Below, in pieces: positions 15,778 through 32,267 of a stretch of 64,000 nt of DNA. The DNA lies in the NCBI RefSeq assembly GCF_000156335.1, contig NZ_DS999213.1, forward strand, positions 3,572,491-3,636,490, read 5' to 3'. Each line of letters begins with the position of its first letter. Position 1 is the stretch's first letter. The DNA is from Roseobacter sp. GAI101. GTDB lineage: Bacteria > Pseudomonadota > Alphaproteobacteria > Rhodobacterales > Rhodobacteraceae. Both the position numbers and the translations under genes were made by a program. The notes beneath the pieces were generated by a model. That model was not told the origin of the DNA, did not search any database, and saw only the letters and a list, made by a program, of their open reading frames with translations.

Positions 15778-15783
15778 GCCAGT

Positions 15784-15801: not shown

Positions 15802-15831
15802 CGGGGCGGGCGTCCTGTCCAATGTGGGCGC

Positions 15832-16170
15832 ATGTATGGGATCAGCGCACTCACCGGCCGGAAACTAGGCGGCATCGACCACCTTCGGCAGTCCATCAGG
15901 GACATTCTCACCACGCCAGTTGGGTCGCGGGTGATGCGGCGCGATTATGGTTCGCGCCTGTTTGATTTGATCGATGCGCCCTATTCGTCTGCGACCAAGC
16001 TGGCGATCATCGCGGCCACGGTCGAGGCGTTGATGACCTGGGAGCCGCGCATCGATGTGGACACGGTCACCCTGCGCACCTTCGAGCCTGGGAAAATCAT
16101 CATCGATCTGAGCGGCCGGTATCTGCCCGACGGCCGTGAGGTCACGATTGCGGGGATCGAGGTCGGATGA
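15832..16170 (+). CDS. phage baseplate wedge protein W (gp25-like)
   Basis: A 112-residue gp25/GpW-type wedge protein, a lysozyme-like fold that is a structural part of all contractile-tail baseplates. The segment LRQSIRDILTTPVGSRVMRRDYGSRLFDLID near 21-51 is the conserved family core containing the EPR-like motif region; WEPRIDV follows near 80. It overlaps gene J by 4 bp (ATGA). Confidence 0.92.
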   Translation: MYGISALTGRKLGGIDHLRQSIRDILTTPVGSRVMRRDYGSRLFDLIDAPYSSATKLAIIAATVEALMTWEPRIDVDTVTLRTFEPGKIIIDLSGRYLPDGREVTIAGIEVG

Positions 16171-17069
16171 GCGCGTTTACGGCAATTAACCTCGATCGCC
16201 TACCTGCTCCGGCGATCATTGATCGCAAGGACTTTGAGACTATTTTGGCGGAGGTCAAAGCCTGGCTTGTCGATCGGGATCCGGACCTTGGGCCCATCGT
16301 CGGTTTGGAAAGCGAGCCGATCACAAAGGTGCTTCAGGCGTGGGCGTACCGCGAGCTTCTTTTGCGCGCCGAAATTGATGATGCTGGCCGTGGCAACATG
16401 CTGGCATTTGCGGCTGGCGCGCAGCTGGATCAATTGGCGGCGTTTTACGGTGTTCAGCGGGCAGTGATCCAGGAGGCCGATCCGGTCGCAGTTCCTCCTG
16501 TGCCTGAAGTGCTTGAGGACGATGTGCGTTTTCGCTCGCGGGTTCAGTTGGCACTCGAGGGTTTCACCACGGCCGGGCCGCGCGGATCATATGTATTCTG
16601 GGGGCTGTCAGCGTCTCCGCAGGTCAAGGACATCAGCGTTGAATCGCCAGCGCCAGGTCAAGTCGTCGTCACCGTTCTGTCCGAGGTAGGAAATGGGGGA
16701 GGTGATCCGGCTTTGGTTCAGCTGGTTGCTGACGCCTTGAATGATGAGGATATCCGGCCGTTGACCGATCAAGTGCTTGTCCAAGCGGCCACCATCGTGA
16801 CGTATCAGCTTGATGCCGTTTTGACCCTGTATGACGGCCCTGACGGGGAAATCGTGCGCGCGGCCGCGCTCGCTTCGGTTACTGCGTTTGTAGAGGATCA
16901 GCATCGCCTGGGGCACGATATCAGCATTTCTGGATTGCATGCCGCCTTGCATTTGCCCGGCGTTCAGAAAGTGTCTTTGGTCAGCCCTCTCGCCGACTTG
17001 GTTGTTGATGGATCGGAGGCTGCCTACTGCGGCTCGGTTTCCGTAAATGTCGGAGGGCGTGATGTCTGA
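16167..17069 (+). CDS. phage baseplate protein J
   Basis: A 300-residue homologue of P2 gpJ / Mu gp47 (baseplate wedge, outer ring). The sequence has the J-family features: N-terminal LEPIVGLESEPITKVLQAWAYRELLLRAEIDDA-like helix, and AAFYGVQR with a following acidic region, then RSRVQLALEGFTTAGPRGSYVFWGLS, and the C-terminal GHDISISGLHAALHLPGVQKVSL. It sits between W and I exactly as in P2, with overlaps on both sides, so it should be expressed with them. Confidence 0.92.
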   Translation: MSAFTAINLDRLPAPAIIDRKDFETILAEVKAWLVDRDPDLGPIVGLESEPITKVLQAWAYRELLLRAEIDDAGRGNMLAFAAGAQLDQLAAFYGVQRAVIQEADPVAVPPVPEVLEDDVRFRSRVQLALEGFTTAGPRGSYVFWGLSASPQVKDISVESPAPGQVVVTVLSEVGNGGGDPALVQLVADALNDEDIRPLTDQVLVQAATIVTYQLDAVLTLYDGPDGEIVRAAALASVTAFVEDQHRLGHDISISGLHAALHLPGVQKVSLVSPLADLVVDGSEAAYCGSVSVNVGGRDV

Positions 17070-17715
17070 TCTGCTCACAGTTTTGCCGCCAAGCGCACAA
17101 CAGATCGAGCGTGATCTCGAGCAGCTGTCTGGGCGTTTGCGCGGCTTCGGTGATCCAATTGCCGCGCTTTGGAATGCATCTGTTTGTCCAGAGCATCTGT
17201 TGTCGTATCTGGCCTGGGCATTCTCCATCGAGATTTGGGACAGCGCTTGGCCGGTAGAGCAGAAGCGCCGGATCCTCATTGATGCCGTTCAGGTGCACCG
17301 AGTGAAGGGCACCGTCGGGTCTGTGCGCCGCGCCTTGGCCGGGATCGGTGTGCCACCCGTGATTTCTGAGTGGTTCGATTATGGTGGCGAGCCGCACACT
17401 TTTCGGATCGATTTCTCGAGCACGGATGTGTTTGCGGCAGGGTTGGCAATTGATCCCAGAACGCTTGAAATCATCACGTCAATCCTCGTGAACCTTAAGC
17501 CGCAGCGCTCTCATTTCGCGGTGCGCATCGGCGAGGATTTCGGGACGGAAGTCTATATGCGGGCCAGCGCGAGAGGGCGATTGGTTTCTGAAATCGGGCA
17601 CGATCCGGTCCCTCGGACCCGTGCCTCTGACAGTTCGTTTCATCTGCGCAGCGGTGCCCGACAGCGTCAGTTGAGTGTTTTGACCCATGACGTTCAAAGA
17701 AGGGATGCGGCCTGA
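17062..17715 (+). CDS. phage tail protein I
   Basis: A 217-residue P2 gpI homologue, part of the baseplate wedge that carries the fibres. Family features are LLPPSAQQIERDLEQL near the start, CPEHLLSYLAWAFSIEIWDSAW near 45-66 and the helix VHRVKGTVGSVRRALAGIG. The ATG at 17062 overlaps the J stop by 8 bp and is preferred over the upstream GTG at 17047. Its stop overlaps the fibre gene start (TGATG). Confidence 0.9.
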   Translation: MSDLLTVLPPSAQQIERDLEQLSGRLRGFGDPIAALWNASVCPEHLLSYLAWAFSIEIWDSAWPVEQKRRILIDAVQVHRVKGTVGSVRRALAGIGVPPVISEWFDYGGEPHTFRIDFSSTDVFAAGLAIDPRTLEIITSILVNLKPQRSHFAVRIGEDFGTEVYMRASARGRLVSEIGHDPVPRTRASDSSFHLRSGARQRQLSVLTHDVQRRDAA

Positions 17716-18227
17716 TGCCCACTACAATTCTCACCGATACCGCCGAGGACAAGTTGCTTCTAGCTGCAGGCTCGGGTGCGCAAGTCGCGATTACACAGGT
17801 TGCCTTGGGCGATGCGAATGGTGCCAGCTATGTTGGTGATTTCGCGCAGACTGCACTGCGCAATGAGCGGATCCGGGTGCCAATTGAAACACGCCATATT
17901 ATTGATCCGAATGCCTGGCGTGTTCGGGCAGAGTTCGGGGCTGACACTGTCGCTTTCGACGTCCGTGAGGCGGGCTTTTACGACGAGGACGGCGACCTGA
18001 TCGCACTTTGTACGTTTCCAGCCGAAGAAGTGCGCCGCACTGGCGGGATCGTTTATTTGATCGACCACGTTTTGAGTTTTAGTCGCGTCGCCGATGGGCT
18101 GATCATTGCGGATGCTCCGGATGATGATCTGTTCGATCTTTCAGTCACCGTGGCGCTCGCGCTTGCCAACCTTCAAGTCGAGCAGCTTCGCCAGGCTGAC
18201 TTGATCGATTCCCTTCTAGATCAATAA
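17715..18227 (+). CDS. tail fibre N-terminal (collar/baseplate-binding) protein
   Basis: A 170-residue protein matching the N-terminal, baseplate-attaching domain of P2 gpH-type fibres (phage tail-collar fibre family): ILTDTAEDKLLLAAGSGAQVAITQVALGD and the later GFYDEDGDLIALCTFP. Normal H proteins are much longer; here the receptor-binding part seems to be split off into the two following genes. It is coupled to I by a one-base overlap. Confidence 0.82.
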   Translation: MPTTILTDTAEDKLLLAAGSGAQVAITQVALGDANGASYVGDFAQTALRNERIRVPIETRHIIDPNAWRVRAEFGADTVAFDVREAGFYDEDGDLIALCTFPAEEVRRTGGIVYLIDHVLSFSRVADGLIIADAPDDDLFDLSVTVALALANLQVEQLRQADLIDSLLDQ

Positions 18228-18240
18228 GGAGCTGCTTTTC

Positions 18241-19017
18241 ATGGTCACTACCGTTGAAGAAGTTGCGGCGCTCATCGACGCCTACACCGAACTGAAGGCC
18301 TATTTTGATGGGCAAAAGTCGCGTTGGGACGGCGAGCTTGATGTGGCGCGGGCATCATACGGCGAGCTACTGGGTGATCTGAACGCGGTTTTCCCTGGTA
18401 AGATGTTTTTCAGTGTCACCGTTGACCCAACGCTGCAGGAATATTCCAACGTAAATGGCGGTACATTTGCCACCATTAAGGAGGCCGTGAATGCCTCGCC
18501 CGTTGGTAGTTTCGTTCGGATTTATCTTCCTTACGGCACCGAGCATATCATCAATGACAACATTTATGTCTGGGGTCGCACTTTGACCTTCGAGGGAAAA
18601 AACAGCGGCTTAGTTGACCGCCCAATCATTCGGCTGGGATTCTCTTCAAGCGCGACCCACACTTATCGGTGTCGTTTTGTAGAGGCGTTCGGCTGTGCCC
18701 TAAAATTTAATAATATCGACATTCGTCCAGATGCACACGATCCGACTAATCCGCAACTTCACACCCCTTCAGAAGCCTTAGTTTCATCTGGTGGCCCTGA
18801 CATTGTCTCTCTCGGCTTTCGGGCGTCTATCTTGAGCGGTGATGGCGGCTTTGCACTTTTGGCCGGACACTATGGCGCATTCCCAACGCTGACAATTCAC
18901 GCCTCGACACTTGATGGAAACGTTTATGGGGTGCGGGGGTTCAGGGCGGGGGTGGGCAACATAGGCACTTCCGCCCTCACTCTCACCAACGGAGCAGCTT
19001 TAACAGACGCCGCTTAA
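18241..19017 (+). CDS. tail fibre/adhesin-like protein, paralogue 1
   Basis: A 258-residue protein following the fibre stem gene after 13 bp, with AAGGAG before the ATG. Residues 1-45 are a helical coiled-coil-like module (VEEVAALIDAYTELKAYFDG) shared with the next gene. The remainder, with TVDPTLQEYSNVNGGTFATIKEAVN and turns rich in Gly, Asn and Thr, resembles the start of a pectin-lyase-like right-handed beta-helix. The last segment GTSALTLTNGAALTDAA also resembles its neighbour's end. Likely a receptor-binding fibre tip; no database family recognised. Confidence 0.65.
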   Translation: MVTTVEEVAALIDAYTELKAYFDGQKSRWDGELDVARASYGELLGDLNAVFPGKMFFSVTVDPTLQEYSNVNGGTFATIKEAVNASPVGSFVRIYLPYGTEHIINDNIYVWGRTLTFEGKNSGLVDRPIIRLGFSSSATHTYRCRFVEAFGCALKFNNIDIRPDAHDPTNPQLHTPSEALVSSGGPDIVSLGFRASILSGDGGFALLAGHYGAFPTLTIHASTLDGNVYGVRGFRAGVGNIGTSALTLTNGAALTDAA

Positions 19018-19086
19018 TCACGCGCTTCGTGAAGTCTATGAATGTTTCGGCCGAAATCTGGCCACTTAGAAGAAGGGATAGCCGCA

Positions 19087-19887
19087 ATGGCCACCACCAT
19101 CGAAAAGTTGAATAGCCTTGTCGCAAACTATACCGATTTGAAGGATTACTTCGAAGCGCAGCGGCCGCGTTGGGATGATGACGTCGCAGCTGCCGAAGCT
19201 GCCTATGCTGCTCTAAGCGGAAACCTGAAGGGCGTCATTCGAAGCCTTATGGATTTCACCGGCACCGTGGATCCTGACATCGCCAATCCCACCAATCTGG
19301 ATGGCGGAACCTTCAACGATATTGCCACGCTGGTAGATGCGGCTCCCTATGGGGCATTCATACAGGCAAAACTTGCGGCCGACAAAACGCACGTTCTGAC
19401 GTCGCTAGTCTCTCTGGCTGGCAAGAACTTGATGATCTTGAAGGAGGGCGAGGGGTTTGACCCCATTTTCGAGCCTGGTTCGTTTGTCTCCTCTAATCAA
19501 AATCAGTGCTACCGCTTCACGAATTTGATGGGAGGGTGTCTGACTCTCCAGAATGTTGACATTCGGTTGCCTGCGAAAGCTGACCCGAATTTGGATTGGA
19601 ATGTGTTTTATCATGTGCTCGTTGACAGCACGACGGCGGCTTCGGTGGATGTGCGGCTGATGAATTGCGCTTTCTCCGGCAGCGATGGTGCGGCCATTGT
19701 CACGGTCAACCGCGGATCAATCGTCAATCTTTCACTTTGGGGCACATCTTTTGATGGACCTATTTTTGGCGTCACGCATGTGGGGGGCTGGGGGATCGCA
19801 CATATCGCATCCCAAGGTTTGACGCTTACAAACGGCGCACTCGCGCAGTCGGGCGGAACGCTCGGCACTGATCTTCTGCAAAATTGA
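19087..19887 (+). CDS. tail fibre/adhesin-like protein, paralogue 2
   Basis: A 266-residue protein with the same architecture as the preceding one. The N-terminal helix IEKLNSLVANYTDLKDYFEAQRPRWDDDV aligns with residues 5-35 of paralogue 1. The phrase TGTVDPDIANPTNLDGGTFNDIATLVDAAPYGAFI aligns with its TVDPTLQEYSNVNGGTF, and both end in SxxLTLTNGA. The middle has diverged strongly. ATG 19087 is chosen because AGAAGGG lies 10 nt upstream. A second, swappable receptor-binding protein is the likely role. Confidence 0.65.
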   Translation: MATTIEKLNSLVANYTDLKDYFEAQRPRWDDDVAAAEAAYAALSGNLKGVIRSLMDFTGTVDPDIANPTNLDGGTFNDIATLVDAAPYGAFIQAKLAADKTHVLTSLVSLAGKNLMILKEGEGFDPIFEPGSFVSSNQNQCYRFTNLMGGCLTLQNVDIRLPAKADPNLDWNVFYHVLVDSTTAASVDVRLMNCAFSGSDGAAIVTVNRGSIVNLSLWGTSFDGPIFGVTHVGGWGIAHIASQGLTLTNGALAQSGGTLGTDLLQN

Positions 19888-19895
19888 GGTAAACG

Positions 19896-20297
19896 ATGCT
19901 TTTTGATATTTCACATAATGGCCGAACCACCCTGTCGGTTGATCGTGCGGGCGCGATTGCGCTTGGGTATCCGGTAGATGCTATCGATGCGGCTGAGGCC
20001 GACCTACGCTTGACCAGGATCAAAGGCGAGTGTCGGCGAAGGATCTATGGCGCAGCATCGGCTGAAACTCAGATGAATATGGCAACTGCTGCAGCTGTGG
20101 TGTCGGCGAAAACTGCCAGCAACCGTTCGGCCGAGGAGAGCGCCATGCTGGCTGGGCTCGGCCAGGCTATCGATTGGGTCGCGGCCATGCGGGCGCGGGT
20201 GGTCGAGTTGGCCGCGGACGCCGATCTGGATTTCCGCGCAGACGAAAACTGGCCGGATTTGCCCGATGGCGCGCGAGACGTCGTCGCCATGTTCTGA
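19896..20297 (+). CDS. small phage protein after fibre genes (fibre-assembly-like)
   Basis: A 133-residue acidic protein with an Ala-rich helical C-terminus (AETQMNMATAAAVVSAKTASNRSAEESAMLAGLGQAIDWVAAMRARV). Its place directly after the fibre genes and its size resemble tail-fibre assembly or host-specificity proteins, but I see no decisive motif. A GAGGTAAA site precedes the ATG. It carries a segment DAIDAAEADLRLTRIKGECRRRIYGAAS that is similar to tail-protein DUF4376-type sequences. Confidence 0.55.
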   Translation: MLFDISHNGRTTLSVDRAGAIALGYPVDAIDAAEADLRLTRIKGECRRRIYGAASAETQMNMATAAAVVSAKTASNRSAEESAMLAGLGQAIDWVAAMRARVVELAADADLDFRADENWPDLPDGARDVVAMF

Positions 20298-20307
20298 TCT
20301 GCTTGGT

Positions 20308-20793
20308 GTGATCGTCCTGGCATTCTATAAAGGCCACGGCCGCTTCTTTGATCGGGTGATCCGTTGGGTCACCCGTTCTGCGTTCAGCCACTGCGAAATC
20401 CTGCGATTGCAACCAGCGCAGGCTGATGATGCGTTTGAGGCGCGCGCCTGGTCATCGAGTGGCCGGGACGGGGGCGTTCGCGAAAAGGTCATTCTGTTCA
20501 AGCCTGGGAATTGGGAGTTTGTCAGCGTTCTCTGGTCGGATGGCGAAGCTGTCGATCGGATCATCGCTGAAATCGGCAACCCCTATGACTATCTGGGCTT
20601 GATCGCATCGCAGGCTTTTAATCTGCGACGGCATCGGCGGGATCAGTGGTTTTGCTCCGAAATCTGCGGGCATGCCTTGGGCTTGAGCGCGCCGCAGGAG
20701 CTCTCGCCGGGTGGGCTCCACTGCCGGGTGCTTGAGATGAATTCGGCCTATTGCATTGGCTTCGAACACGCGGGGGAACCGCCAGAGGATTGA
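20308..20793 (+). CDS. permuted papain-fold amidase/peptidase (YiiX/NlpC-P60-like)
   Basis: A 161-residue enzyme with the layout of permuted NlpC/P60 (C92-like) hydrolases: SAFSHCEILR near residue 30 supplies the catalytic His, and DQWFCSEICGHALGL near 113-127 supplies the nucleophile Cys. VIVLAFYKGHGRFFDRVIRW at the start fits the family's first strand. GTG 20308 is preferred to the ATG at 20266, which overlaps the previous gene. It could cut peptidoglycan crosslinks or lipid amides. Being inside a tail cluster, it may act on the envelope during injection or release. The stop lies within a repeated motif. Confidence 0.72.
   Translation: MIVLAFYKGHGRFFDRVIRWVTRSAFSHCEILRLQPAQADDAFEARAWSSSGRDGGVREKVILFKPGNWEFVSVLWSDGEAVDRIIAEIGNPYDYLGLIASQAFNLRRHRRDQWFCSEICGHALGLSAPQELSPGGLHCRVLEMNSAYCIGFEHAGEPPED
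20773..20790 (+). repeat. repeated motif copy 2 (GGGGAACCGCCAGAGGAT)
   Basis: Exact match to 15784-15801. It covers the last codons of the hydrolase gene and ends at its stop; the sheath gene starts 60 bp later. Confidence 0.6.
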
Positions 20794-20849
20794 GCCGCAG
20801 CGCGGTGGAATGCTTGGGGCAACAGTTCACATCCGCAAGCGAGGTCACT

Positions 20850-22031
20850 ATGGCATTTCTTCACGGCGTCGAGGTCATCGAGATCGATGCAGGTCCACGT
20901 CCCATCCAGACGGTCAAATCGTCTGTCATCGGCATTGTGGGCACTGCGCCCGACGCCGATGCAGATGCATTCCCCTTGAACACGCCGGTCCTGGTCGCCG
21001 GTTCGCGCAAAGAAGCCGCAGGCCTGGACACGGTCGGCGATGCGCGCGGCACCTTGCCCACGGCAATGGACGGCATCTTCGATCAGATCGGTGCAGTCGT
21101 CATTGTCGTTCGTGTGGAGGAGGGGCTCGATGAGGCCGAAAGCCTCGCCAATGTTATCGGGGGCGTCAACGCGGTTGATGGCAACTTCGAGGGTGTCCAT
21201 GCCCTGGTCGGCGCGGAGAGCGTCGTCGGGTTTTCGCCGCGCATCCTGATCGCGCCGGGCTTCACTCACCAGCGCCCCGAGGGCAACGCCAACCCGGTGA
21301 TCGCGGAGCTGCAGGGCATCGGTGACCGGCTGCGGGCCGTGATCATCGCCGACGGGCCCAATACCAACGACGCCGACGCCATCGAGGCAGCCGGTGGCTT
21401 CGGCTCCGATCGCATCTACCTGATCGATCCCTGGCACAAGGTCACCGTCGGCTCCGATATCGTGGATGTTCCGCCATCGTCCCGCGTTGCAGGCTTGATC
21501 GCCACGGTGGACAACGACACCGGCTTCTGGGCGTCGCCGTCGAACCACCTGATTGGCGGAATCATCGGTACCAGCCGTCCGGTCGATTTCAAGCTCGGGG
21601 GCGCGAGCGCGCGTGCCAATCTATTGAACGAGGCGAAAGTCGCCACGACCATCCGCCAGAATGGCTACCGCCTGTGGGGCAACCGGACGCTGACCGACGA
21701 CACAAAGTGGATTTTCCTGAGCGTTCGCCGCACGGCCGACATCATCAACGACTCGCTTTTGCGCGCCCACCTTTGGGCTGTCGATCGTGGCATCACAAAA
21801 ACCTATGTCTCGGACGTCGAGGAAAGCGTGAACGCCTACCTCCGCGATCTGGTCGCTTTGGGCGCGATCCTGGGCGGTCGCTGCTGGGCCGATCCGGATC
21901 TGAATTCCGCGGCCAATATCCAGCTCGGCAAGGTGTTTTTCAACTTTGATTTCACGCCGGTCTATCCGGCCGAGCATATCACTTTCCGTTCGCACCTGGT
22001 GAAAGATTACATCGAGGAGGTGTTTAACTGA
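20850..22031 (+). CDS. contractile tail sheath protein FI
   Basis: A 393-residue P2 gpFI homologue, the sheath subunit that contracts to drive the tube. It starts AFLHGVEVIEIDAGPRPIQTVKSSVIGIVGTAP and has FSPRILIAPGFTHQ near 130, SSRVAGLIATVDNDTGFWASPSN near 210, ARANLLNEAKVATTIRQNGYRLWGNRTL near 250 and YLRDLVALGAILGGRCWAD near 330, all typical. The ATG at 20850 is chosen over the 5' extension because the family starts here. It overlaps FII by one base (TGATG). Confidence 0.95.
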   Translation: MAFLHGVEVIEIDAGPRPIQTVKSSVIGIVGTAPDADADAFPLNTPVLVAGSRKEAAGLDTVGDARGTLPTAMDGIFDQIGAVVIVVRVEEGLDEAESLANVIGGVNAVDGNFEGVHALVGAESVVGFSPRILIAPGFTHQRPEGNANPVIAELQGIGDRLRAVIIADGPNTNDADAIEAAGGFGSDRIYLIDPWHKVTVGSDIVDVPPSSRVAGLIATVDNDTGFWASPSNHLIGGIIGTSRPVDFKLGGASARANLLNEAKVATTIRQNGYRLWGNRTLTDDTKWIFLSVRRTADIINDSLLRAHLWAVDRGITKTYVSDVEESVNAYLRDLVALGAILGGRCWADPDLNSAANIQLGKVFFNFDFTPVYPAEHITFRSHLVKDYIEEVFN

Positions 22032-22537
22032 TGGCTGCTGAAGATATCCTGAAGTATCTCAATTTGTTCGTTGATGGCCGTGGCCATGCGGGCAAGATCG
22101 AGGAGTACAGCGCTCCCGATCTAACGGTTTCGACCGAAGAATTCCGCGGGGGCGGCATGGACGCGCCCATCGATCTCGACATGGGTCAGGAAAAAATGAC
22201 CACGTCGTTCGTCCTGACGTCCTACGATCGGGATGTGCTATCCCTCTGGGGCATCAAGGACGGATCGTTGGTCCAGCTGACGGCGCGCGGGTCGCTTGAA
22301 AGCCTGGATGGCACCAAGACGGCCGTCGCGCATCACATGCAGGGCAAGATCATCTCGGTGGCGCGCGGCACCTGGGGTTCAGGGGCCAAGCCGTCGCTGA
22401 CCTTCACGGTGAGCCTGCGCTACTACCGCGAGGTCCACGGTGGCGTCGATATCAACGAGATCGATGTCGTCAACATGGTGCGCAAGGTGCGGGGCGTCGA
22501 TCAGCTCGCCGAGCACCGCGCCAATATCGGCCTGTAA
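22031..22537 (+). CDS. tail tube protein FII
   Basis: A 168-residue P2 gpFII homologue forming the inner tube. Features: DILKYLNLFVDGRGHAGKIEEYSAPDL at the start, EFRGGGMDAPIDLDMGQEKM near 35 and the C-terminal ALRYYREVHGGVDINEIDVVNMVRKVRGVD-type segment. It is coupled to the sheath gene by a one-base overlap. Size and position match P2 exactly. Confidence 0.94.
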   Translation: MAAEDILKYLNLFVDGRGHAGKIEEYSAPDLTVSTEEFRGGGMDAPIDLDMGQEKMTTSFVLTSYDRDVLSLWGIKDGSLVQLTARGSLESLDGTKTAVAHHMQGKIISVARGTWGSGAKPSLTFTVSLRYYREVHGGVDINEIDVVNMVRKVRGVDQLAEHRANIGL

Positions 22538-22546
22538 GGAGCGCAC

Positions 22547-22837
22547 ATGGAAAACGCAAAAAACCCAGCCTGGTTGGTCGAGAACGAGGACGGCTCGATC
22601 ACGGTCAACTATGAGACCCGGCCGCCCAAGATCGACGGGACCGACGTCAAAAGCCTGAAGATGCGCGAGCCCTTCGTGGAGGATCAGCTGGCTGCCGATC
22701 GGGCGAGCTCGAACAGCGCCGAGGCTGAAATCACCTTGATCTCGAACCTCTGCGAAATCTCGCCCGAGGCGGTGCGCGGTCTGACGATGCGCCAGTACAG
22801 CAGGCTGCAGACGGCTCTCTCCGTTTTTATTGGCTGA
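22547..22837 (+). CDS. tail assembly chaperone E
   Basis: A 96-residue homologue of the P2 gpE / Mu gp41 tail-assembly protein. It has KSLKMREPFVEDQLAADRASSNSAEAEITLISNLCEISPEAVRGLTMRQYSRLQTALSVFIG, the usual acidic helical pattern. It ends next to a T-rich stretch (TTTTT at 22824-22828) where a -1 shift would continue into the following frame, as in P2 E/E'. Confidence 0.88.
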   Translation: MENAKNPAWLVENEDGSITVNYETRPPKIDGTDVKSLKMREPFVEDQLAADRASSNSAEAEITLISNLCEISPEAVRGLTMRQYSRLQTALSVFIG

Positions 22838-22980
22838 CCAGTGATCAAGTCCGGGCGGGGTCACTTCGGCTCGCCCGGCACACCGGATGGGCCGAGCGTG
22901 AAATCATGGCCATGCCGGTCAGTCGTTTCATCTGGTGGATAGAGGGCCTTCCAAAGAATGAGCAAAAACCAACGCCTTAA
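22834..22980 (+). CDS. E' extension reached by -1 frameshift (GpE-like)
   Basis: A 48-residue frame with no credible start of its own, beginning LTSDQVRAGSLRLARHTGWAE and ending PVSRFIWWIEGLPKNEQKPTP. It overlaps the E stop in the -1 frame and ends 20 bases inside the tape-measure gene. The hydrophobic, Trp-rich middle resembles the GpE-type C-terminal part. By analogy with P2, E and E' are made in a ratio set by slippage on the TTTTT run at 22824-22828. The frame is seen; the slip is inferred. Confidence 0.7.
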   Translation: MTSDQVRAGSLRLARHTGWAEREIMAMPVSRFIWWIEGLPKNEQKPTP

Positions 22981-25768
22981 TGCGACGATCACGATCGGTT
23001 CGGTTCTCGAGCAGTCGGTCAAGCGCAACGTCAGCTTCCTGAAAACGGGGCTTGCCCAGGTTGGCGATGCGATCAAGGGCGTCGAGCGCCGTCAAAAGGG
23101 GCTCGATCGCCAGCGCGACGTCTTGCGCAAGCAGGGCTTGTCGGTTGAGCACCACGATCGCGAGTATGAGAAACTCGAGCGGACCCTGGTGGATCTGCGC
23201 CGGGCCCAGGAACGCTGGAACCGCGCGGCCGCAGCATCGAGGCGTGTCGGCTCCACCTTCAGTAACATGGCATCTGGCATCGGCCGAAATGTGCGCCAGA
23301 TTGCGATCGGGGCCAGCTTGGCCGGTGGTGCCATCTTCGGGATCGCCAATTCGACGGCTGACCTGGGCGATAATGTTGCCAAGACGGCCGATAAGCTGGG
23401 CATCGGGCTCGGCGTGCTGCAGGAGCTGCGCTACGCGGCCGAGCGGTCTGGTGTTGCCACAGCGACCTTCGATGGCGCGCTGGAAAAAATGACCAAGAAC
23501 ATTGGTCTGGCGATGGAGGGCACCGGCGCGCAGAAGGATGCCCTGGACGCCCTGGGGCTTTCGGCCGCTGACCTTGCCTCCAAGCTGCCGGAGGACGCCC
23601 TGGCGATGATCGCCGACAGGCTGCAGGGCGTGGAGACGCAGGCGGAAAAGGCAGCGCTGGCAAACGATCTGTTTGGCCGGTCGGGCATCGGCCTGCTGAA
23701 CATGCTGAAGGACGGCTCCAAGGGGCTGACGCAGCTGCGCGAGGACGCGCGGCGCACCGGCTATGTCCTGTCCGACCAGGCTGCCCGGGACGCCGAAGTG
23801 TTCAAGGACACGCTGCTCGATACGCAGTTGGTGATGAAGGGCCTGAAAAACACGGTGGGCTCCGCGCTGATGCCGGTCGTGACGCGGTCCATGCGCCGGA
23901 TCGGTGACGCCCTGATCGGCAATCGCGATGACGTCGAGCGGTGGGCCGAGGGTTTCGCGGCCAGTGCGGAGCGCGCGCTTCCGATCATCGGCGAGATTGC
24001 CTCGGGTATCGGTTCGATCGGCTCCATCGTTTTTGAAGTGACCGAGCGGACGGCTGAAATGGTCGGGGGCTGGGAAAACTTCGGCATGATCGTCGGGGCT
24101 GTCCTGGCGTCGCGCACGATTGTGCGGGTCGGCAAGTTTGCCGGTGCCGTGTTCAGCCTCGGCCGCGCCATGCTGTCCCTGGTCAGCGCGTCGCCGATCG
24201 TGGTCGGGGCGATCCGCGCCATCGGTACCGCGTTGATGATGAACCCCATCGGGGCTGCGATCGGGGTCATCGCGGGCGGGGCGTATTTGATCTATCGAAA
24301 CTGGGAGACGGTCGGTCCCTGGTTCCGCGGGCTTTGGTCCGATACGAAAACCTACTTTGCGGGCTTCGGCAACTTCGTGGGCGGCGTGTTCTCCGGTGAC
24401 ATGCGGCGCGCAGAGCGCGGGGTTCGGGCGATGTGGTCTGGCACCACCTCATTCTTTGACCGGACCTTGAGCGGGATCGGTGCGGTATTCTCTGCCACCT
24501 ATGAGAACCTGATCAAGCCTGCGACCGACGCGATGGGGATCACGGCTCCGATTGAGGCCGCCTGGCGCAAAGCCGGGGATGTCCTGGCTCCAGTGCTGTC
24601 TGATATCGGTTCGTACTACACCGGGCTCGGTGACGTCGTCGCGGGCGTGTTCACCGGGGATATGGAGCGCGCTGCCCTTGGCGTCGGCCGGATGTGGCGC
24701 TCGGCCGCTTCGATGTTTGACCGTGTCTTGGGCCGCATCGGGGATCGCTTCGTCTGGGTCTATGACACTCTGATCAAGCCGGTGACGGACGCGCTCGGGC
24801 TGACGGCTCCGATCGAGCGCGCCTGGTCGGCATTTTCAGGTGCCATAGACGCGACGTTCAGCTCGATCGGGGCTGTGTTTGATGCGCTCTGGACGGGATC
24901 TGCCGAGCCGGTGATCGAGGGGCTGAAGAACACGGCCGGAATCGGTGCGGCCTGGGACGCCGTTAAGTCTGCCCTGGATCCTGTGCTGACTTGGATCGGG
25001 GATAAGTTCACCACACTGATGGGTTTGATCAAGCCGGTTATCGAGGCGTTGAAGTGGGGCTACGAGAACGCGCAGCGGGCCGGGAACGCCATCGGCTCGG
25101 CCGTAGGCTCTGCAGCTGCTGCGCATGTGAAACCTGGCAAGGTTTCGGGCCTGGGCAATACCGCATCTAATGCCAATGCCGCGCCCATGAGCGATTCGGA
25201 TGCGCAGAAGCTCTACGGCATCAAGCCGCAGAAGAACGCGCTGGGTGGGCCGTTCCGTCCTGGCTGGCATCTGACGGGCGAGCTCGGGCCGGAGCTGAAG
25301 TTCGAGAACCGCTCGGGCTATGTGGCGAACAATCGCGCCATGCGTCAGCTCGCCGGTTATGCCGATCGCGTCGGGTCGGTTATGCGGCCGAATGCGACAC
25401 GCGCCCAATCGATCGTGCCGGGGGCTCTAAGGCAAGCGCTGCGAAAAGCGCCGGCGCAATCTGTCGGAATGGCAAAACTTGGCAGCGCCAGAAACTCGGA
25501 CGCTTTGACGGCACACGCGGGCCAAATGGCCGAGGCCGTTCGCTCCCTGAGCATGGATCGGATGGAGGCGGTATTCGCGCAACCGGCTGCGGCCGCCCCA
25601 ACTGCCGCGCCTGTCGCGGGGCCGCAAACCGTGACCAACCAGTACACGATCCATGCGGCCGGGGCCGATGCCCAGGAGGTCATTCGGCTTCTGCGCGTTG
25701 AAGAGCGTCGCAACTCGGGCAACGGTCTGTTCGATCGCGCGCCGACAACTGGTCCGTTTGGGAGGTAG
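22958..25768 (+). CDS. tail tape measure protein T
   Basis: A 936-residue tape measure protein that sets tail length. The N-terminal 110 residues are coiled coil (KGVERRQKGLDRQRDVLRKQGLSVE). The centre carries TADLGDNVAKTADKLGIGLGVLQELRYAAERSGV, the classical TMP core, then hydrophobic helices near 330-430. Two about 70-residue repeats (near 466-535 and 553-622, each with GVFxGDM and LIKPxTDAxGxTAPIE) follow. The C-terminus has NRAMRQLAGYADRVG and a Pro/Ala-rich linker. A length of 936 residues predicts a tail of ordinary P2-like size. Confidence 0.93.
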   Translation: MSKNQRLNATITIGSVLEQSVKRNVSFLKTGLAQVGDAIKGVERRQKGLDRQRDVLRKQGLSVEHHDREYEKLERTLVDLRRAQERWNRAAAASRRVGSTFSNMASGIGRNVRQIAIGASLAGGAIFGIANSTADLGDNVAKTADKLGIGLGVLQELRYAAERSGVATATFDGALEKMTKNIGLAMEGTGAQKDALDALGLSAADLASKLPEDALAMIADRLQGVETQAEKAALANDLFGRSGIGLLNMLKDGSKGLTQLREDARRTGYVLSDQAARDAEVFKDTLLDTQLVMKGLKNTVGSALMPVVTRSMRRIGDALIGNRDDVERWAEGFAASAERALPIIGEIASGIGSIGSIVFEVTERTAEMVGGWENFGMIVGAVLASRTIVRVGKFAGAVFSLGRAMLSLVSASPIVVGAIRAIGTALMMNPIGAAIGVIAGGAYLIYRNWETVGPWFRGLWSDTKTYFAGFGNFVGGVFSGDMRRAERGVRAMWSGTTSFFDRTLSGIGAVFSATYENLIKPATDAMGITAPIEAAWRKAGDVLAPVLSDIGSYYTGLGDVVAGVFTGDMERAALGVGRMWRSAASMFDRVLGRIGDRFVWVYDTLIKPVTDALGLTAPIERAWSAFSGAIDATFSSIGAVFDALWTGSAEPVIEGLKNTAGIGAAWDAVKSALDPVLTWIGDKFTTLMGLIKPVIEALKWGYENAQRAGNAIGSAVGSAAAAHVKPGKVSGLGNTASNANAAPMSDSDAQKLYGIKPQKNALGGPFRPGWHLTGELGPELKFENRSGYVANNRAMRQLAGYADRVGSVMRPNATRAQSIVPGALRQALRKAPAQSVGMAKLGSARNSDALTAHAGQMAEAVRSLSMDRMEAVFAQPAAAAPTAAPVAGPQTVTNQYTIHAAGADAQEVIRLLRVEERRNSGNGLFDRAPTTGPFGR

Positions 25769-25770
25769 CG

Positions 25771-26184
25771 ATGGCAGAAGTGATGATGCAGCTCGGGTTC
25801 TTCCAGTTCTCCCTGGACAACGCGGCGTACCAAAGGCTCAGCCGGTCGACCGAGTATCGCTGGGCACGTCAGGCGCGGATCGGCACCAATGATGCGCTGC
25901 AGTTCACCGGGCTTGGTCCAGAGACAGTGGAGGTCGAGGGCGTGATCTATCCCCATTTCCGTGGCGGGCTGAAGCAGATCGATAAAATGCGCACACAGGC
26001 CAGTCTTGGCCTGCCGCTGCCCCTGGTGTCTGGCATCGGCAAGGTGCTGGGCCTGTGGGTGGTTGAGGGCGTGACAGAGGGGCAGGAGGTTTTTGCGTCG
26101 CAAGGCATCCCGCATCGGCAGGATTTTACAATGAGGATGGCAAGATATGACGGCGGTGCCCGGTCTCTACTTCGTTTCTTCTGA
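25771..26184 (+). CDS. tail terminator-type protein U
   Basis: A 137-residue P2 gpU homologue. It starts MAEVMMQLGFFQFSLDNAAYQRLSRSTEYRWARQARIGTNDALQFTG and has GVIYPHFRGGLKQIDKMR near 50-68, both standard for the family. It follows T by 2 bp and overlaps gene X by 38 bp. Its role is in tail completion near the baseplate. Confidence 0.92.
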   Translation: MAEVMMQLGFFQFSLDNAAYQRLSRSTEYRWARQARIGTNDALQFTGLGPETVEVEGVIYPHFRGGLKQIDKMRTQASLGLPLPLVSGIGKVLGLWVVEGVTEGQEVFASQGIPHRQDFTMRMARYDGGARSLLRFF

Positions 26185-26371
26185 CGGCGACGTCCTGGAC
26201 CAAGTGGTCGCGAGCCATTACGGCGACACTTCAGGCTTGAAGGTGGAGGCGGTGCTCGCAGCTAATCCTGGTCTGGGCGCGCTGGGCGCTGTCCTAAACG
26301 CGGGCGTCAGGATCCTGCTGCCGGATCTGGAAACCTCGACACCAATGGAAACGGCACAGCTATGGGGCTGA
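26147..26371 (+). CDS. tail protein X (LysM-like)
   Basis: A 74-residue P2 gpX homologue with the LysM-like pattern: LYFVSSDGDVLDQVVASHYGDTSGLKVEAVLAANPGLGALGAVLNAGVRILLPDL. It bridges U and D, overlapping both. In P2-like tails this small protein connects spike hub parts and may touch peptidoglycan. Confidence 0.9.
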   Translation: MTAVPGLYFVSSDGDVLDQVVASHYGDTSGLKVEAVLAANPGLGALGAVLNAGVRILLPDLETSTPMETAQLWG

Positions 26372-27369
26372 TGGACTTTCGGCCGCTGGTTCAGGTGACT
26401 ATTAACGGCGTCCCGCTGTCGGGCTTTGTGTTCTCTCAGCTGAGTTCGGTGCGGGTGTCGGACACGGCCGGGTTCATCTCGGACACGGCCGAGATCACTT
26501 TTGCCAACACATCGCCGATATCGCGCTTTGCCATGCCGGAGCCAGGGGCCGAGGTTGAGATCGCGCTCGGCTACCTGGGCGCGTTCTTGCGCATGGGTCT
26601 GTATATCGCCGACGAGGTGGAGGAGAGCTCTCCCCCTCGCATAATCACGGCCGTGTGCCGCGCGAAGGCGCAAGGCGAGACCCAGAGCGGGTTTGCTCCG
26701 ATCAATCAGCAAAAGTCGCGGTCTTGGCCTGCAGGCATGACGCTTAAGGCGATCGTGACCACCATCGCGGGCGACAACGGGCTTGAACCGGCCGTGACCG
26801 AAGCCGCGGGCTCGATCGTGCCTGGTCACATCGACCAGCTGGATGAAAGTGATCTGTCCGTTCTGACGCGGATCGCGGTGTTGCATGATGTGGTCGCCAA
26901 ACCGGCCGGGGGCGTTCTTTTTGTCGGCCGCAGGGCCGAAGGTGTCAAAGCGTCGGGTCAGCCGACGCCCGTCGTGCCACTGCTCGAGGCAGACGTAAGC
27001 CGCTGGTCCATGCGCCGGGGGCTCAGCGATGCGACGGGTACGATCATTGCCACCTACCGGGATCTCGAAAACGCCGAGGATGTCGAGGTGAAGATCGGGG
27101 ACGCCGAGCCGGTGCGCCGGTTGCGGCAGCGGTTTCGGTCGGAGGAAGAAGCGCGCGCCGTCGCCGTGGCCGAGTCGCGCCGCGCCAGCCGTGCGAAGGA
27201 GACGCTCGATCTTGAGCTGCCTGGCAATCCAACGATCGCTGCCGAGGGGCGCATCGTCCCGATCGGGTTCAGCTCGGCCGCTTCAGGCGAGTGGATCGTG
27301 AAAACCGCGACCCATGAAGTGTCTGAGGCGGGCTATCGCACGATGGCCCAATGCGAGCGGCCGGAGTAG
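26371..27369 (+). CDS. tail hub protein D (late-control/gp27-like)
   Basis: A 332-residue gpD homologue, the hub that joins the tube to the spike. It has DFRPLVQVTINGVPLSGFVFSQLSSVRVSD at the start, a central SWPAGMTLKAIVTTIAGDNGLEPAV near 125, then LDESDLSVLTRIAVLHDVVAKPAGGVLFVGRR near 150-180, and the C-terminal SGEWIVKTATHEVSEAGYRTMAQCERPE, all canonical. ATG 26371 overlaps the X stop (TGATG); ATG 26362 is three codons upstream and also possible. This is the last recognisable tail gene. Confidence 0.93.
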   Translation: MDFRPLVQVTINGVPLSGFVFSQLSSVRVSDTAGFISDTAEITFANTSPISRFAMPEPGAEVEIALGYLGAFLRMGLYIADEVEESSPPRIITAVCRAKAQGETQSGFAPINQQKSRSWPAGMTLKAIVTTIAGDNGLEPAVTEAAGSIVPGHIDQLDESDLSVLTRIAVLHDVVAKPAGGVLFVGRRAEGVKASGQPTPVVPLLEADVSRWSMRRGLSDATGTIIATYRDLENAEDVEVKIGDAEPVRRLRQRFRSEEEARAVAVAESRRASRAKETLDLELPGNPTIAAEGRIVPIGFSSAASGEWIVKTATHEVSEAGYRTMAQCERPE

Positions 27370-28991: not shown

Positions 28992-29328
28992 ACTTGTTTT
29001 CAAGGAAGCAGTTACCGAGCTCCTCAGGAACACTGGCTGCTATCGGACCGACTTAGATGATAGTTTTCGAACGGGCAGTCTTAGCTAGGAGAGCCCTCAG
29101 GAAAACTATCCTCAAAGGGCGCCAACGAAAATAGAAATGGAAGCAGCTGACAGGCGGCTTTGACGTGCATATATCGACGTAAGAGGGTTAGTTGGGTCAT
29201 ATGCGTCGGAAAAGTCCTGATCAGGTATCAATAAAGCGGCTATCCTGGTGCCGCACATTCCTGATACGTTTCTGATATGTTCTACCGGTTTGGTGCACAA
29301 AAAACCGTTTAAAATCAGTCAAAAACGT
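28992..29328. other. non-coding right arm of element 1
   Basis: Some 337 bases with no credible gene. The last 80 resemble the bases before the third att copy (32060-32140), including GGTGCACAAA against GTTGCACAAA and the direct approach ACGTGCGGATTGC. An arm-type repeat lies at 29250-29276. Confidence 0.55.
29250..29276 (+). repeat. arm-type repeat copy, right end of element 1
   Basis: GCCGCACATTCCTG followed by ATACGTTTCTG; compare 5510-5540 and 32060-32086. Possible recombinase arm site. Confidence 0.5.
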
Positions 29329-29377
29329 GCGGATTGCAAATCCGTGTACAGGAGTTCGATTCTCCTACTCGCCTCCA
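29329..29377 (+). repeat. att copy 2 (attR of element 1 / attL of element 2)
   Basis: Exact 49-bp copy of the tRNA-Cys 3' half (5401-5449). The 5' half of the tRNA is absent upstream, so it is not a tRNA gene. It marks the junction of the two tandem elements. Confidence 0.95.
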
Positions 29378-29643
29378 TATCTTTCAAAGAATTGAGCCCT
29401 GCGGCTACGAGGCACGGATGCGGCTGCCACACGCTTTGCCGCACGTCTTTATAAATAGGAGGTATATTTTCATATATATTTCAGTGTTTTAAGGTGGTGG
29501 ACAGCTTGAGGCCAACAGTTCGTTCATCAGACAATTAGATCTACTTCACGAGGCACAGTCTTGAGAAGATACAAAGTTGCCGGAAAACTGTCAGGGTGAT
29601 AGGGTTAAGAAATTACCTAAGTAAACAAAAGAAAGTGCTTTAG
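29378..29643. other. left arm of element 2, promoter region of exosortase cassette
   Basis: 266 non-coding bases. The first 75 resemble 5450-5525 (shared TTTCAAAG, and ATGCGGCTGCCACAC then CTTTGCCGCAC). The rest is AT-rich and must carry the cassette promoter; no clear -35/-10 pair stands out. Confidence 0.5.
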
Positions 29644-29820
29644 ATGCCAGACAAAATTTTCACTCTCAGTGTCATCGGTCTTATAACAGCTTCTCAAGCT
29701 TCCGCCGGGATCGTTCCTGCTCCCTTGCCGATTGCTGGGGCAGCAGGGCCATTGGGTTTGGCCGTAGCTGTCGTCGGGTATGGTGCATACCGGATCCTCT
29801 CAAGACGCCAAGATAAATAA
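29644..29820 (+). CDS. 58-residue putative exosortase substrate
   Basis: A very small open frame. Residues 1-21 form a signal peptide (MPDKIFTLSVIGLITASQASA, AxA cleavage before G22). The rest fits the tripartite PEP-CTERM-type sorting signal: a Pro-rich motif (IVPAPLP, 23-29), a hydrophobic helix (about 36-49) and a basic end (SRRQDK). The motif resembles the VPLPA-type signals common in alphaproteobacteria. Almost nothing lies between the signal peptide and the sorting motif, so processing would leave only a few residues. It sits 36 bp upstream of the exosortase-like gene on the same strand. The ribosome binding site is weak. Role unknown. Confidence 0.7.
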   Translation: MPDKIFTLSVIGLITASQASAGIVPAPLPIAGAAGPLGLAVAVVGYGAYRILSRRQDK

Positions 29821-29856
29821 TTCTCCCCAACAATATTTGAAACGAAAGAGTTTTGG

Positions 29857-30687
29857 TTGTTAATTCCAGAAATGAAAACACCAAGATTTGATATTCATCT
29901 TGGTTTTTTCACTGTTGTATTTATCAATGGAATTATTAGCCAATCATCGGTGAGTGAGATATCCGATATATTTTTGTCGGTGTTAAATTCAAATCTATTC
30001 TTTCTTTTTGCTTTTTATGTTTTGTTTGATCTGCTGATCGAAGGCCGAGATGACATTTCTGCGAATAGCCTAGACTATCTGATTTGTGGAGTGGTGATAT
30101 TGAGCCTCCTCCTTTTCGGTCGAATAGGGGTTTCCCGTGATGTTGGGTTGACGACAGCAGCGCTGGCTGTTTTCTTTTGGTGGCGTCGAGAAACAGGTAA
30201 TGCAAGATATATAGCCGTCGTATGGTTCGCATTAACTCTTAATTTGCTGATCGCACCGCTATTATTCCAAATTTTTAAGTCTTATATACTTATCGCTGAG
30301 GTGGATTTTGTTGCCCTCATGTGGAGATGCCTTGGTTTTAATGTATGGTCTGATGGTCAACTGCTTGTGTTGGAGCATGGTATGAAGATCCGCCTGATTG
30401 GTGCATGCTCTGTCTTCACCAATTTATCATTCGGCTTCCTGTGCTACGCTTCGGTAAAAGCCTTTAATCGTCGACGCATGTCTTACTCGGATGTGATTAT
30501 TGTTGCATCACTGATTTTCTTACTGATTTTGGGGAACACAATCCGGATTGGATTAATGCTGCCGAGTCGCGCTGACTATGAGTTTTGGCATCACGGGTCA
30601 GGTGCAACGATATTTGGCCTGGCGCAATTTTTCATAATCGTCGCCGCAAGCTATCTTAGCATTCGGGTCAGGTCATCAAAGTGCTGA
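29857..30687 (+). CDS. exosortase-family membrane protein
   Basis: A 276-residue protein with about eight hydrophobic helices. The exosortase/archaeosortase catalytic triad is visible in order and spacing: Cys184 in LIGACSVFTNL, Arg230 in LGNTIRI and His245/246 in FWHHGSG. Exosortases cut and transfer proteins bearing a C-terminal sorting helix at the inner membrane. Only one adjacent candidate substrate (the 58-residue protein) is seen. The TTG at 29857 has an AAAGAG site about 6 nt upstream; ATG 29872 is the alternative. It overlaps the next gene by 7 bp. It lacks the EpsI and CAAX-protease fusions of some classes, so the subfamily is not assigned. Confidence 0.8.
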   Translation: MLIPEMKTPRFDIHLGFFTVVFINGIISQSSVSEISDIFLSVLNSNLFFLFAFYVLFDLLIEGRDDISANSLDYLICGVVILSLLLFGRIGVSRDVGLTTAALAVFFWWRRETGNARYIAVVWFALTLNLLIAPLLFQIFKSYILIAEVDFVALMWRCLGFNVWSDGQLLVLEHGMKIRLIGACSVFTNLSFGFLCYASVKAFNRRRMSYSDVIIVASLIFLLILGNTIRIGLMLPSRADYEFWHHGSGATIFGLAQFFIIVAASYLSIRVRSSKC

Positions 30688-31190
30688 GGCGTGCTCTAAT
30701 TCTTGTATTCTTTCTCTTCCTTGCAGTATTTATCGCGAATGAGCGGATCTATGCTAGAGTGGACAGAGCCAAGTATAACGCAAGCTCCAGCTTTCAGGAT
30801 GCTTACCTATCAGTTTTAAAAAGTGAGGGGGCGTCAATTATCAAGGTTGTTGAAAACGATAAACGCACAGGAGACAGGAGCGTTGTGTTCAAGGAAAAAT
30901 CTTGTCCGGAGCCTTATGAGATTTTTGAGCACCGTGTTGCCCTAAGCTTGCCACATCATGCACAGGTGCCGCCACTAAGTGAAATGGATTTGAAGGTTAT
31001 ATACTACGATAAGGTATGGGGAGACTGGGGCCGCCTGCAAAATACGGTAGAAACGATTATGGTGAGCTTTGCTTCGGTGTTTGGACATTCTGATTTGCAC
31101 GATAATATGAAGGCTCTATTGCTGTTCATCCCTAAGGGTTGCGGCAATTACTTAAGATTAGACTGGTCGCAAGCCTGGATGCGGCGCTGA
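30681..31190 (+). CDS. single-pass exported protein of exosortase cassette, unknown
   Basis: A 169-residue protein starting at GTG 30681, overlapping the exosortase gene. Residues 4-22 form one hydrophobic helix (ALILVFFLFLAVFIANE), leaving about 145 residues outside the membrane. Two Cys (CPEPY near 75 and the CGNYLRL near 157) might pair. Its size and position recall small accessory proteins that follow exosortases (EpsI-like), but I see no definitive similarity. Likely works with the exosortase or its substrate. Confidence 0.68.
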   Translation: MLRRALILVFFLFLAVFIANERIYARVDRAKYNASSSFQDAYLSVLKSEGASIIKVVENDKRTGDRSVVFKEKSCPEPYEIFEHRVALSLPHHAQVPPLSEMDLKVIYYDKVWGDWGRLQNTVETIMVSFASVFGHSDLHDNMKALLLFIPKGCGNYLRLDWSQAWMRR

Positions 31191-31225
31191 TCTTCCAGTT
31201 TTAAGCAGTGAAGGTGCAATAGATC

Positions 31226-32005
31226 ATGTTCCTCCTATCCTTTATTTTCTTCGTAATTGTCGTTGGCTGGATTGAGTATAGTTCATTGGAAGTGGCTTTA
31301 CGTGACTCAACTAGAAAGCGTTGGCCTGCACACATTGGACTCTTTACCATGTCGCTCGCGATACAGATCAGCCTTCCTATTGGAGCTGTCGTTGCCGCGA
31401 TGGTGGCAGAGACGAATGCCTATGGTGTATTCAACTGGCTAAATGTTCCCTTTGCGTTAGAGGCCTTGTTCAGTGTGATCACAATGAGCTTTTCGTACTA
31501 CCTGCTCCATCTTTTGATGCACAAGGTTCCGGTTCTCTGGCGACTGCACCAAGTCCATCACAGCGATTATAAATTAGATATATCTACCGCGTATCGAACG
31601 CATCCAATTTCTGCTATTCTCACTCTAGCTATCATCTTTTTAGTTATTAGCCTTTTGGGAGCTGCTCCAGAGGTAGTAATTTTTTACTCGGGGTTTGTTT
31701 TAACTGTAGATCTCTTGCACCATTCGAGCCTCAATTGGCCGGCCGCAGTTGAGAGGGTGGTCGGAAAGCTGCTTATTACTCCTTCTCAACACCACATCCA
31801 TCATTCAGATTTTCAGCCTGAAACAGATACGAATTTCTCTGCAGACTTTTGTCTGTGGGATAAGGTTTTCGGAACTTTTCTAGCGCGGCCGCTGCGTCAC
31901 CATGCAGACTTCAAATACGGTTTGAAAGAGGTTTCGAGTGACGACGCGGTCGATATCCATGCAATTTTGCTGTCGCCGTTTGTTCGGGGGAATGGCGATC
32001 CTTAG
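31226..32005 (+). CDS. fatty acid hydroxylase / sterol desaturase family protein
   Basis: A 259-residue integral membrane di-iron enzyme. The His clusters are complete: HLLMH near residue 95, HQVHH near 110, a lone THP and LLHHSSLNW in the next segment, and SQHHIHHSD near 193. Four membrane helices surround them. Members hydroxylate or desaturate lipids, or cleave ether lipids. It follows the unknown exported gene by 35 bp on the same strand and closes the cassette. A link with an exosortase is unusual; it could modify the lipid or anchor to which a processed peptide is attached (inference). Confidence 0.85.
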   Translation: MFLLSFIFFVIVVGWIEYSSLEVALRDSTRKRWPAHIGLFTMSLAIQISLPIGAVVAAMVAETNAYGVFNWLNVPFALEALFSVITMSFSYYLLHLLMHKVPVLWRLHQVHHSDYKLDISTAYRTHPISAILTLAIIFLVISLLGAAPEVVIFYSGFVLTVDLLHHSSLNWPAAVERVVGKLLITPSQHHIHHSDFQPETDTNFSADFCLWDKVFGTFLARPLRHHADFKYGLKEVSSDDAVDIHAILLSPFVRGNGDP

Positions 32006-32059
32006 GGTGCGGATATGTATACATTCACGCCGACCAGAGGTGGGCATCTGGACGGGATA

Positions 32060-32086
32060 GCCGCCACACATTCTTGATATGTTTCT
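32060..32086 (+). repeat. arm-type repeat copy, right end of element 2
   Basis: GCCACACATTCTTG followed by ATATGTTTCTC; similar to 5510-5540 and 29250-29276. Confidence 0.45.
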
Positions 32087-32140
32087 CTAATATTCCGCCT
32101 GTTTGTTGCACAAATAAACGTTTGAAAACAAAGAAAGACG

Positions 32141-32189
32141 TGCGGATTGCAAGTCCGTGTGCAGGAGTTCGACTCCGCTACTCGCCTCC
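32141..32189 (+). repeat. att copy 3, diverged tRNA-Cys 3' half
   Basis: The 49-bp tRNA end with about five substitutions (for example AAGTCCGTGTG for AAATCCGTGTA and GACTCCGCTAC for GATTCTCCTAC). This is the outer right boundary of the tandem insertions. Divergence suggests that it is the oldest att copy or that it came from a different donor. Confidence 0.85.
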
Positions 32190-32267
32190 ATATTTATCAA
32201 TGACTGGTGGTGGTCGCAGATTGGCTTGGCTTGGCTTTGTGTCGCTGTGGTCATTGATCTGTTATTG

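Follow-up and report, generated by a model that had tools for sequence, protein, structure and literature searches.

Enzymes of the exosortase/archaeosortase superfamily (TIGR04178, PF09721) share a Cys/Arg/His core, and their substrates carry a signal peptide and a tail made of a short motif, a transmembrane (TM) helix and a basic end. A "dedicated system" of one sorting enzyme and one target has already been defined, exosortases included (PMC3237569), and an EpsH homologue with four PEP-CTERM proteins on a plasmid was noted in 2006 (PMC1569441); the latter source also describes EpsI (TIGR02914), whose gene follows that of EpsH or is fused with it. Two further described systems are OlsE (NF052566), a hydroxylase acting on the ornithine moiety of ornithine lipids (PMC3972451), and the cis-mobilizable element (CIME), an att-bounded element that has lost its integration and transfer genes (PMC5704250). 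The locus that we compare with these systems is a four-gene cassette bounded by att repeats in the genome of the marine bacterium Roseobacter sp. GAI101, within a stretch of 64,000 nucleotides (contig NZ_DS999213.1, positions 3,572,491 to 3,636,490; hereafter the window).

Four intact genes on the + strand of the window (29644-32005) occupy 2.8 kb of DNA flanked on either side by a copy of the 3' half of a tRNA-Cys gene, the att copies at 29329-29378 and 32142-32191. As an earlier note on this DNA had described, they stand alone there, the list of open reading frames (ORFs) holding no further assignable ORF between the repeats. Gene 1 (29644-29820) encodes a 58-residue putative substrate, gene 2 (29872-30687) a putative exosortase, gene 3 (30681-31190), whose start falls within the end of gene 2 and overlaps its stop, an exported-looking protein with two cysteines, and gene 4 (31226-32005) a membrane enzyme of the FA_hydroxylase superfamily. 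The composition of the cassette looks foreign, with a GC content of 44.6% vs 56.8% for the whole window and a GC content at third codon positions of 0.43-0.49 vs 0.68-0.75 in four nearby chromosomal genes. Our reading, to which we give a probability of about 0.65, is that of a dedicated, one-substrate exosortase cassette that represents an alphaproteobacterial subfamily without a model and forms the cargo of a recombinase-less att-bounded element at a tRNA-Cys hotspot; it builds on direct observations of gene order, homology, invariant residues, att copies, base composition and the recurrence of the cassette in a second genome.

The exosortase assignment depends on a chain of relatives. The ORF of gene 2 opens at TTG 29857, and the alignment with the homologous protein of Sulfitobacter sp. 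CW3 (same genus; NZ_JAHXRL010000007.1) makes ATG 29872 the more likely start; the motifs GACS, GNTIR and HHGSG resemble the exosortase core. The CW3 protein, 36% identical to that of the window, was found at E 2.0e-49 in a search of 145 related genomes, and profiles were built stepwise, starting from these two sequences. The two-sequence profile had matches in 2 of 62 genus and 4 of 394 family genomes, and a five-sequence profile in 2 of 390 order, 12 of 385 class and 5 of 299 phylum genomes; the samples overlap, and each count includes the window genome itself. Among three weak first hits, G015 (E 0.005, internal stops) and G102 (E 0.002) did not recur with the profiles and were dropped, and G121 recurred at E 1.0e-10. 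The final set, which excludes the dropped hits, comprises 20 loci in 19 genomes, every one of which was examined. PF09721, searched against the whole window genome at E 0.001, found nothing.

Across all 20 loci, Gly175, Cys184, Asn227, Arg230 and His245 are invariant, among them the Cys/Arg/His triad that the earlier note had picked out. With the window and CW3 copies removed, a leave-one-out profile retrieves the window protein at E 1.9e-36 among 876 ORFs. The step from these relatives to the described enzymes is made by L041, found with the five-sequence profile at 8.5e-18, which passes the general signature TIGR04178 with 24.1 bits vs a cut-off of 23; L039 falls narrowly under the same cut-off (22.8 bits), the CW3 protein scores 17.7, and L037 matches cyanoexosortase C at 2.4e-7, far under the cut-off of that model. 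Because of this chain and the invariant residues, gene 2 would belong to the exosortase/archaeosortase superfamily and to no named subfamily; we place it as a probable distant exosortase, a superfamily member by way of the profile chain and not a member of a curated family. In the exosortase tree, the window and CW3 proteins form a pair (100/98), which G272 joins with moderate support (85/84).

The most constant companion of the exosortase is the product of gene 3. An exported-looking protein is encoded in 20 of 20 loci, its chosen start at most 40 bases from the exosortase end and overlapping it in 16; the starts were picked by rule, resulting in lengths of 119-203 residues. Leave-one-out profiles recover the partner in every locus (window copy 5.6e-6; weakest 2.3e-4), and one cysteine is invariant (20/20) while a second is found in 15 of 20 aligned rows. 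Three plasmid loci outside the profile-building set, found later with the L041 exosortase in Microvirga, Rhizobium gallicum and Rhizobium sp. WL3, also have the partner (2.4e-13 to 1.9e-10), which is thus homologous across 23 of 23 loci in all. In Microvirga, a single fused ORF of 479 aa comprises both exosortase and partner, and upstream of it lies a tailed protein of 97 aa; neither this record nor that of R. gallicum carries a gene table at the locus. The record of Rhizobium sp. WL3 labels both proteins "hypothetical protein" within a polysaccharide operon.

The earlier note's exported protein of no recognised family has remained one: none of 14 partners scanned against Pfam and NCBIfam reaches a cut-off, that of EpsI included, and the scan gave two chance-level Pfam hits (E 0.033 and 0.15). 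The partner nevertheless recalls EpsI in following the exosortase, in being fused to it in one locus, and, as checked for the copies of the window, CW3 and G272, in having a single hydrophobic segment at the N-terminus, whereas the EpsI model goes unmatched and the conserved cysteine sets the family apart. Since EpsI is likewise found downstream of, or fused to, EpsH, the role of gene 3 may equal that of EpsI, the unmatched model notwithstanding.

Gene 1 has the architecture of a PEP-CTERM-type substrate, as the earlier note had supposed: a signal peptide ending in ASA is followed by GIVPAPLPIAGAAGP, a TM helix and a basic C-terminus. Counterparts of the same design lie directly upstream of the exosortase in CW3 (60 aa, 46% identical) and G272 (59 aa, 42%), with PLPxAGAxGPxG conserved. 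The predicted distance from signal-peptide end to helix is 7-10 residues in these three substrates vs 43-82 in those of L034, L041 and L043, the predicted cleavage sites being approximate; the substrate of this cassette type has almost no passenger. A rough scan for signal peptide and tail gave 15 hits in 467 ORFs near the exosortases and 7 in 1987 elsewhere, with exosortase C-termini among its false positives, and recovered the substrates of the window, CW3, G272, L034, L041 and L043; the tailed proteins of L013, L015, L033, L046 and G121, the last a protein of 345 aa, were judged by eye from ORF lists. Altogether, 11 of the 20 loci have a recognisable tailed protein nearby.

That no tailed protein was recognised near the other nine indicates that substrates can be unlinked, and it lends some weight to an alternative in which gene 1 is a small accessory membrane protein and the enzyme, like ordinary exosortases, serves other tailed proteins. 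A profile of the three substrates bears on this alternative: the window genome, CW3 and G272 each yield a single clear copy (E at most 6e-29), in agreement with the single substrate claimed by the earlier note, and nothing further better than E 0.03 turns up across the six genomes searched. With its 57 positions the profile could miss relatives of gene 1 that share only the tail, and the window genome does contain weak hits (E 0.19 and 0.26); these are, however, internal or unplaced matches, and gene 1 combines signal peptide, motif, helix and basic end, with a conserved tail and a place directly upstream of the enzyme in three genomes. We therefore think the accessory role unlikely and favour gene 1 as the substrate. 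Elsewhere in the set, exosortase and partner are followed, at L013:6576-6905, L015:9672-10019 and L033:8626-8919, by small tailed proteins that are related to one another and share the pattern ANCxASF as well as a second Cys, and two small proteins with the tail VPGPLEGVGLPF, one on the opposite strand, lie near the exosortase of L041 (genome G1042), a genome with a second exosortase elsewhere, L039.

Gene 4, a lipid enzyme in the reading of the earlier note, matches FA_hydroxylase PF04116 with 94.5 bits vs a gathering cut-off of 31 and shows visible histidine clusters. It shares the PF04116 superfamily and such clusters with OlsE, its nearest curated NCBIfam model, and differs in reaching only 77.3 bits vs an equivalog cut-off of 475. 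The window and CW3 copies score 192 bits against each other, and plasmid relatives at most 155 and 145 (best 12 of 206 and best 8 of 215 matches); no exosortase is found among the listed neighbours of those in Phaeobacter, Dinoroseobacter, Loktanella and Marinibacterium, whose gene tables are incomplete. A 2011 paper reportedly linked N-acyl amino acid synthases to the PEP-CTERM/exosortase system, which makes an amino-lipid theme thinkable at most.

In its surroundings the family again resembles described exosortases, exopolysaccharide genes being neighbours of many relatives of gene 2. Family-4 glycosyltransferases that are homologous to one another are encoded immediately upstream in 5 of 20 loci (L016, L036, L037, L038 and L042) and farther away in L035, and eight scanned neighbours include a sugar transferase (L041), an SLBB/Poly_export protein (L043), an epimerase (L040), a glycosyltransferase (L034), a GNAT acetyltransferase (L039) and a SIS/amidotransferase protein (L037); in the window, CW3 and G272, no polysaccharide-type genes were noticed as immediate neighbours of the cassette. 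CW3 has the same four genes at a different site, flanked by a putative TAXI-type binding-protein gene and a putative RND adaptor gene, and G272 has the first three, after which the contig ends. The RND adaptor on the CW3 side has relatives in the genus, and the TAXI gene is not beside it in the loci fetched; the genes upstream of these relatives are others, in several of them a Bcr/CflA-type transporter (by eye).

The att core is the 3' half of a complete tRNA-Cys (GCA) gene at 5376-5449 (+ strand; ARAGORN). Copy B, the left border of the mini-element, is identical to the tRNA at 49 of 49 bases, and copy C, the right border, matches copy B at 44 of 49 (29329-29378 and 32142-32191 as given above); a 31-base pattern from the repeat has 3 matches in the window and zero in 100 dinucleotide shuffles. 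The 79 bases preceding the two right-hand att copies, which form the right end of a neighbouring 24-kb element (29249-29328, + strand) and of the mini-element (32062-32141, + strand), are alike at 60 of 79 positions vs fewer than 42 elsewhere in the window on either strand. Since their ends are alike, one integrase type could act on both elements. The 24-kb element contains a C-terminal tyrosine integrase remnant (11861-12274, - strand; PF00589), IS21, a methyltransferase and phage tail genes. By tblastn, islands at tRNA-Cys in the genus contain relatives of the remnant.

Across the genus, the 3' end of tRNA-Cys serves as an integration hotspot with tandem att copies: in 18 of 60 genus genomes the contig has at least one additional copy no more than about 100 kb away, a hand count that includes the window genome and one case recognised by a 24-base match only. 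Eight small tRNA-Cys islands of 2.2-10 kb were read by eye in seven genomes; seven have an integrase, and six of these are related to the window remnant, five at 48-57% identity and one at 36%. An island in G001 (L104:1182-3417), att-bounded and 2.2 kb long, holds two genes, apparently for an HD-type hydrolase and for a Panacea-like protein, with no integrase seen. The mini-element, for its part, has no integrase among its four genes, and the seven island integrases have no tblastn match inside it. It resembles a CIME in that att copies flank it, genes for integration or transfer are absent, and a second element lies in tandem with it at the 3' end of a tRNA gene; the likeness concerns att ends and gene content, not descent from an integrative and conjugative or an integrative and mobilizable element. 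As it encodes no recombinase, its mobility can only be presumed.

The same features would be expected of a decaying leftover, former cargo of a larger island that lost its integrase and is now functionless: no recombinase lies inside the element, the nearby compatible integrase is a C-terminal remnant beside IS21, and att copy C has diverged (44/49). A decayed unit would hardly be expected, though, to retain four open frames, catalytic residues and an overlapping gene order, and CW3 keeps the same gene set despite an exosortase identity of 36%. We accordingly consider decay improbable and retain the view of a functional cassette. The cargo of small tRNA-Cys islands is often defence-like (by eye), because of which an anti-phage role was also considered and set aside, genes 2-4 having no PADLOC match at E 0.01 (gene 1 lay outside the scan). 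Searched with tblastn, the query protein P0002 has no match in plasmid or phage collections and a single one in IMG/VR (L006, 100% identical over residues 1-174, probably the same genome), and none was found for P0005 and P0010. Elsewhere in the window, positions 5792-11728 hold a defence-like group in which two unknown proteins accompany a HATPase protein and an Eco57I-type N6 methyltransferase, and positions 15352-27369 contractile phage tail genes (sheath PF04984/PF17482), with no head or packaging genes recognised in the ORF list.

Several results weigh against a dedicated, mobile exosortase cassette. Window gene 2 itself reaches no curated NCBIfam model at cut-off (best E 0.86, XrtO) and has zero Pfam matches, its AlphaFold model, predicted with the CW3 relative, is of low confidence (mean predicted local distance difference test score 43.9), and the exosortase profile finds no relative among PDB sequences at E 10. 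The earlier note had named the lack of an exosortase profile hit as the outcome that would count against it, and taken to the letter the window protein lacks one, its relatives forming the bridge to TIGR04178. Missing curated hits and a poor model are also what one would expect if gene 2 were a multi-pass membrane protein resembling exosortases by chance; with a profile chain above the TIGR04178 cut-off, invariant C, N, R and H, and a partner at all 23 loci, we regard such a coincidence as very improbable and hold to an exosortase. The Pro-Glu-Pro motif is not present in the tail of gene 1, where PLPxAGA takes its place. The window and CW3 partners are only weakly alike by BLAST (E 0.002 over 21 residues), and the partner tree, with long branches, groups the window copy with that of G272 (100/96), the CW3 copy standing separately. 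Of the 20 loci, two (window and CW3) were found to have the hydroxylase, with the G272 contig stopping at the partner and less than 2.3 kb available after the exosortase in L015, L034, L042, L046 and L047; the conserved unit is therefore exosortase plus partner, and the co-occurrence of four genes that the earlier note proposed as a check holds in full for CW3 and for the first three genes in G272. Finally, no tRNA gene lies within the 19 kb fetched around the CW3 copy, and comparison with the genus loci fetched gave no clean empty site. Because the CW3 copy sits between TAXI and RND genes without a tRNA, the cassette appears to have reached different sites; the island of the earlier note thus stands as regards att copies, foreign third-position composition and recurrence, its mobility being a presumption.

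How the cassette might work can be sketched from its sequences and from the superfamily. The gene 1 product would be exported by Sec and cut by signal peptidase after ASA, and the C-terminal helix would anchor the remaining peptide of ~37 aa in the inner membrane, leaving the PLPxAGA motif outside. As in the superfamily, Cys184 of the exosortase, together with Arg230 and His245, would cut at or near this motif, and a short N-terminal peptide would be released or passed to a lipid or glycan acceptor; the cassette could in this way be a compact source of a processed peptide at the surface. The two-cysteine partner would act with the exosortase at the periplasmic face, as its adjacency in all loci and the one fusion suggest, and the OlsE-like hydroxylase may modify a membrane lipid, possibly the acceptor. 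Movement of the element would require an integrase, supplied in trans or by an adjacent island, to act on its att ends. A bolder proposal, which we put forward as speculative and rather doubtful, is that the short peptide is the product: some 5-10 residues, starting with G-[IV] and ending near PLP, would be joined to a membrane lipid that contains an amino acid and is hydroxylated by gene 4, giving a ribosomally encoded surface lipopeptide.

How new is such a cassette? The idea of single-target sorting is known, and the earlier note's view of exosortases as multi-substrate enzymes, while true of the common case, was overstated in the light of dedicated systems (PMC3237569). The cassette agrees with these in having its target encoded beside its enzyme, and differs in that the target is passenger-less and the unit att-bounded, the enzyme detailed in that paper being rhombosortase. 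From PEP-CTERM-like substrates in general it differs by its PLPxAGA motif, its single substrate and the near-absence of a passenger, and from the superfamily by an exosortase that fits no named subfamily model. No description of this cassette or its partner was recognised in open-licence papers; what the earlier note called unusual and perhaps undescribed is new in its unmodelled subfamily with a partner, its passenger-poor substrate design and its att-bounded setting.

The exosortase reaction is not known to have been reconstituted, partly because of the many substrates and large polysaccharide loci involved; with a single enzyme, a single substrate of 58 residues, a partner and a lipid enzyme, the cassette would make a very small test bed. 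As the record of Rhizobium sp. WL3 illustrates, an alphaproteobacterial exosortase subfamily with a consistent two-cysteine partner can escape current annotation. The lipopeptide reading, if true, would mean a new use of the exosortase reaction, in a pathway resembling those of ribosomally synthesized and post-translationally modified peptides instead of protein sorting.

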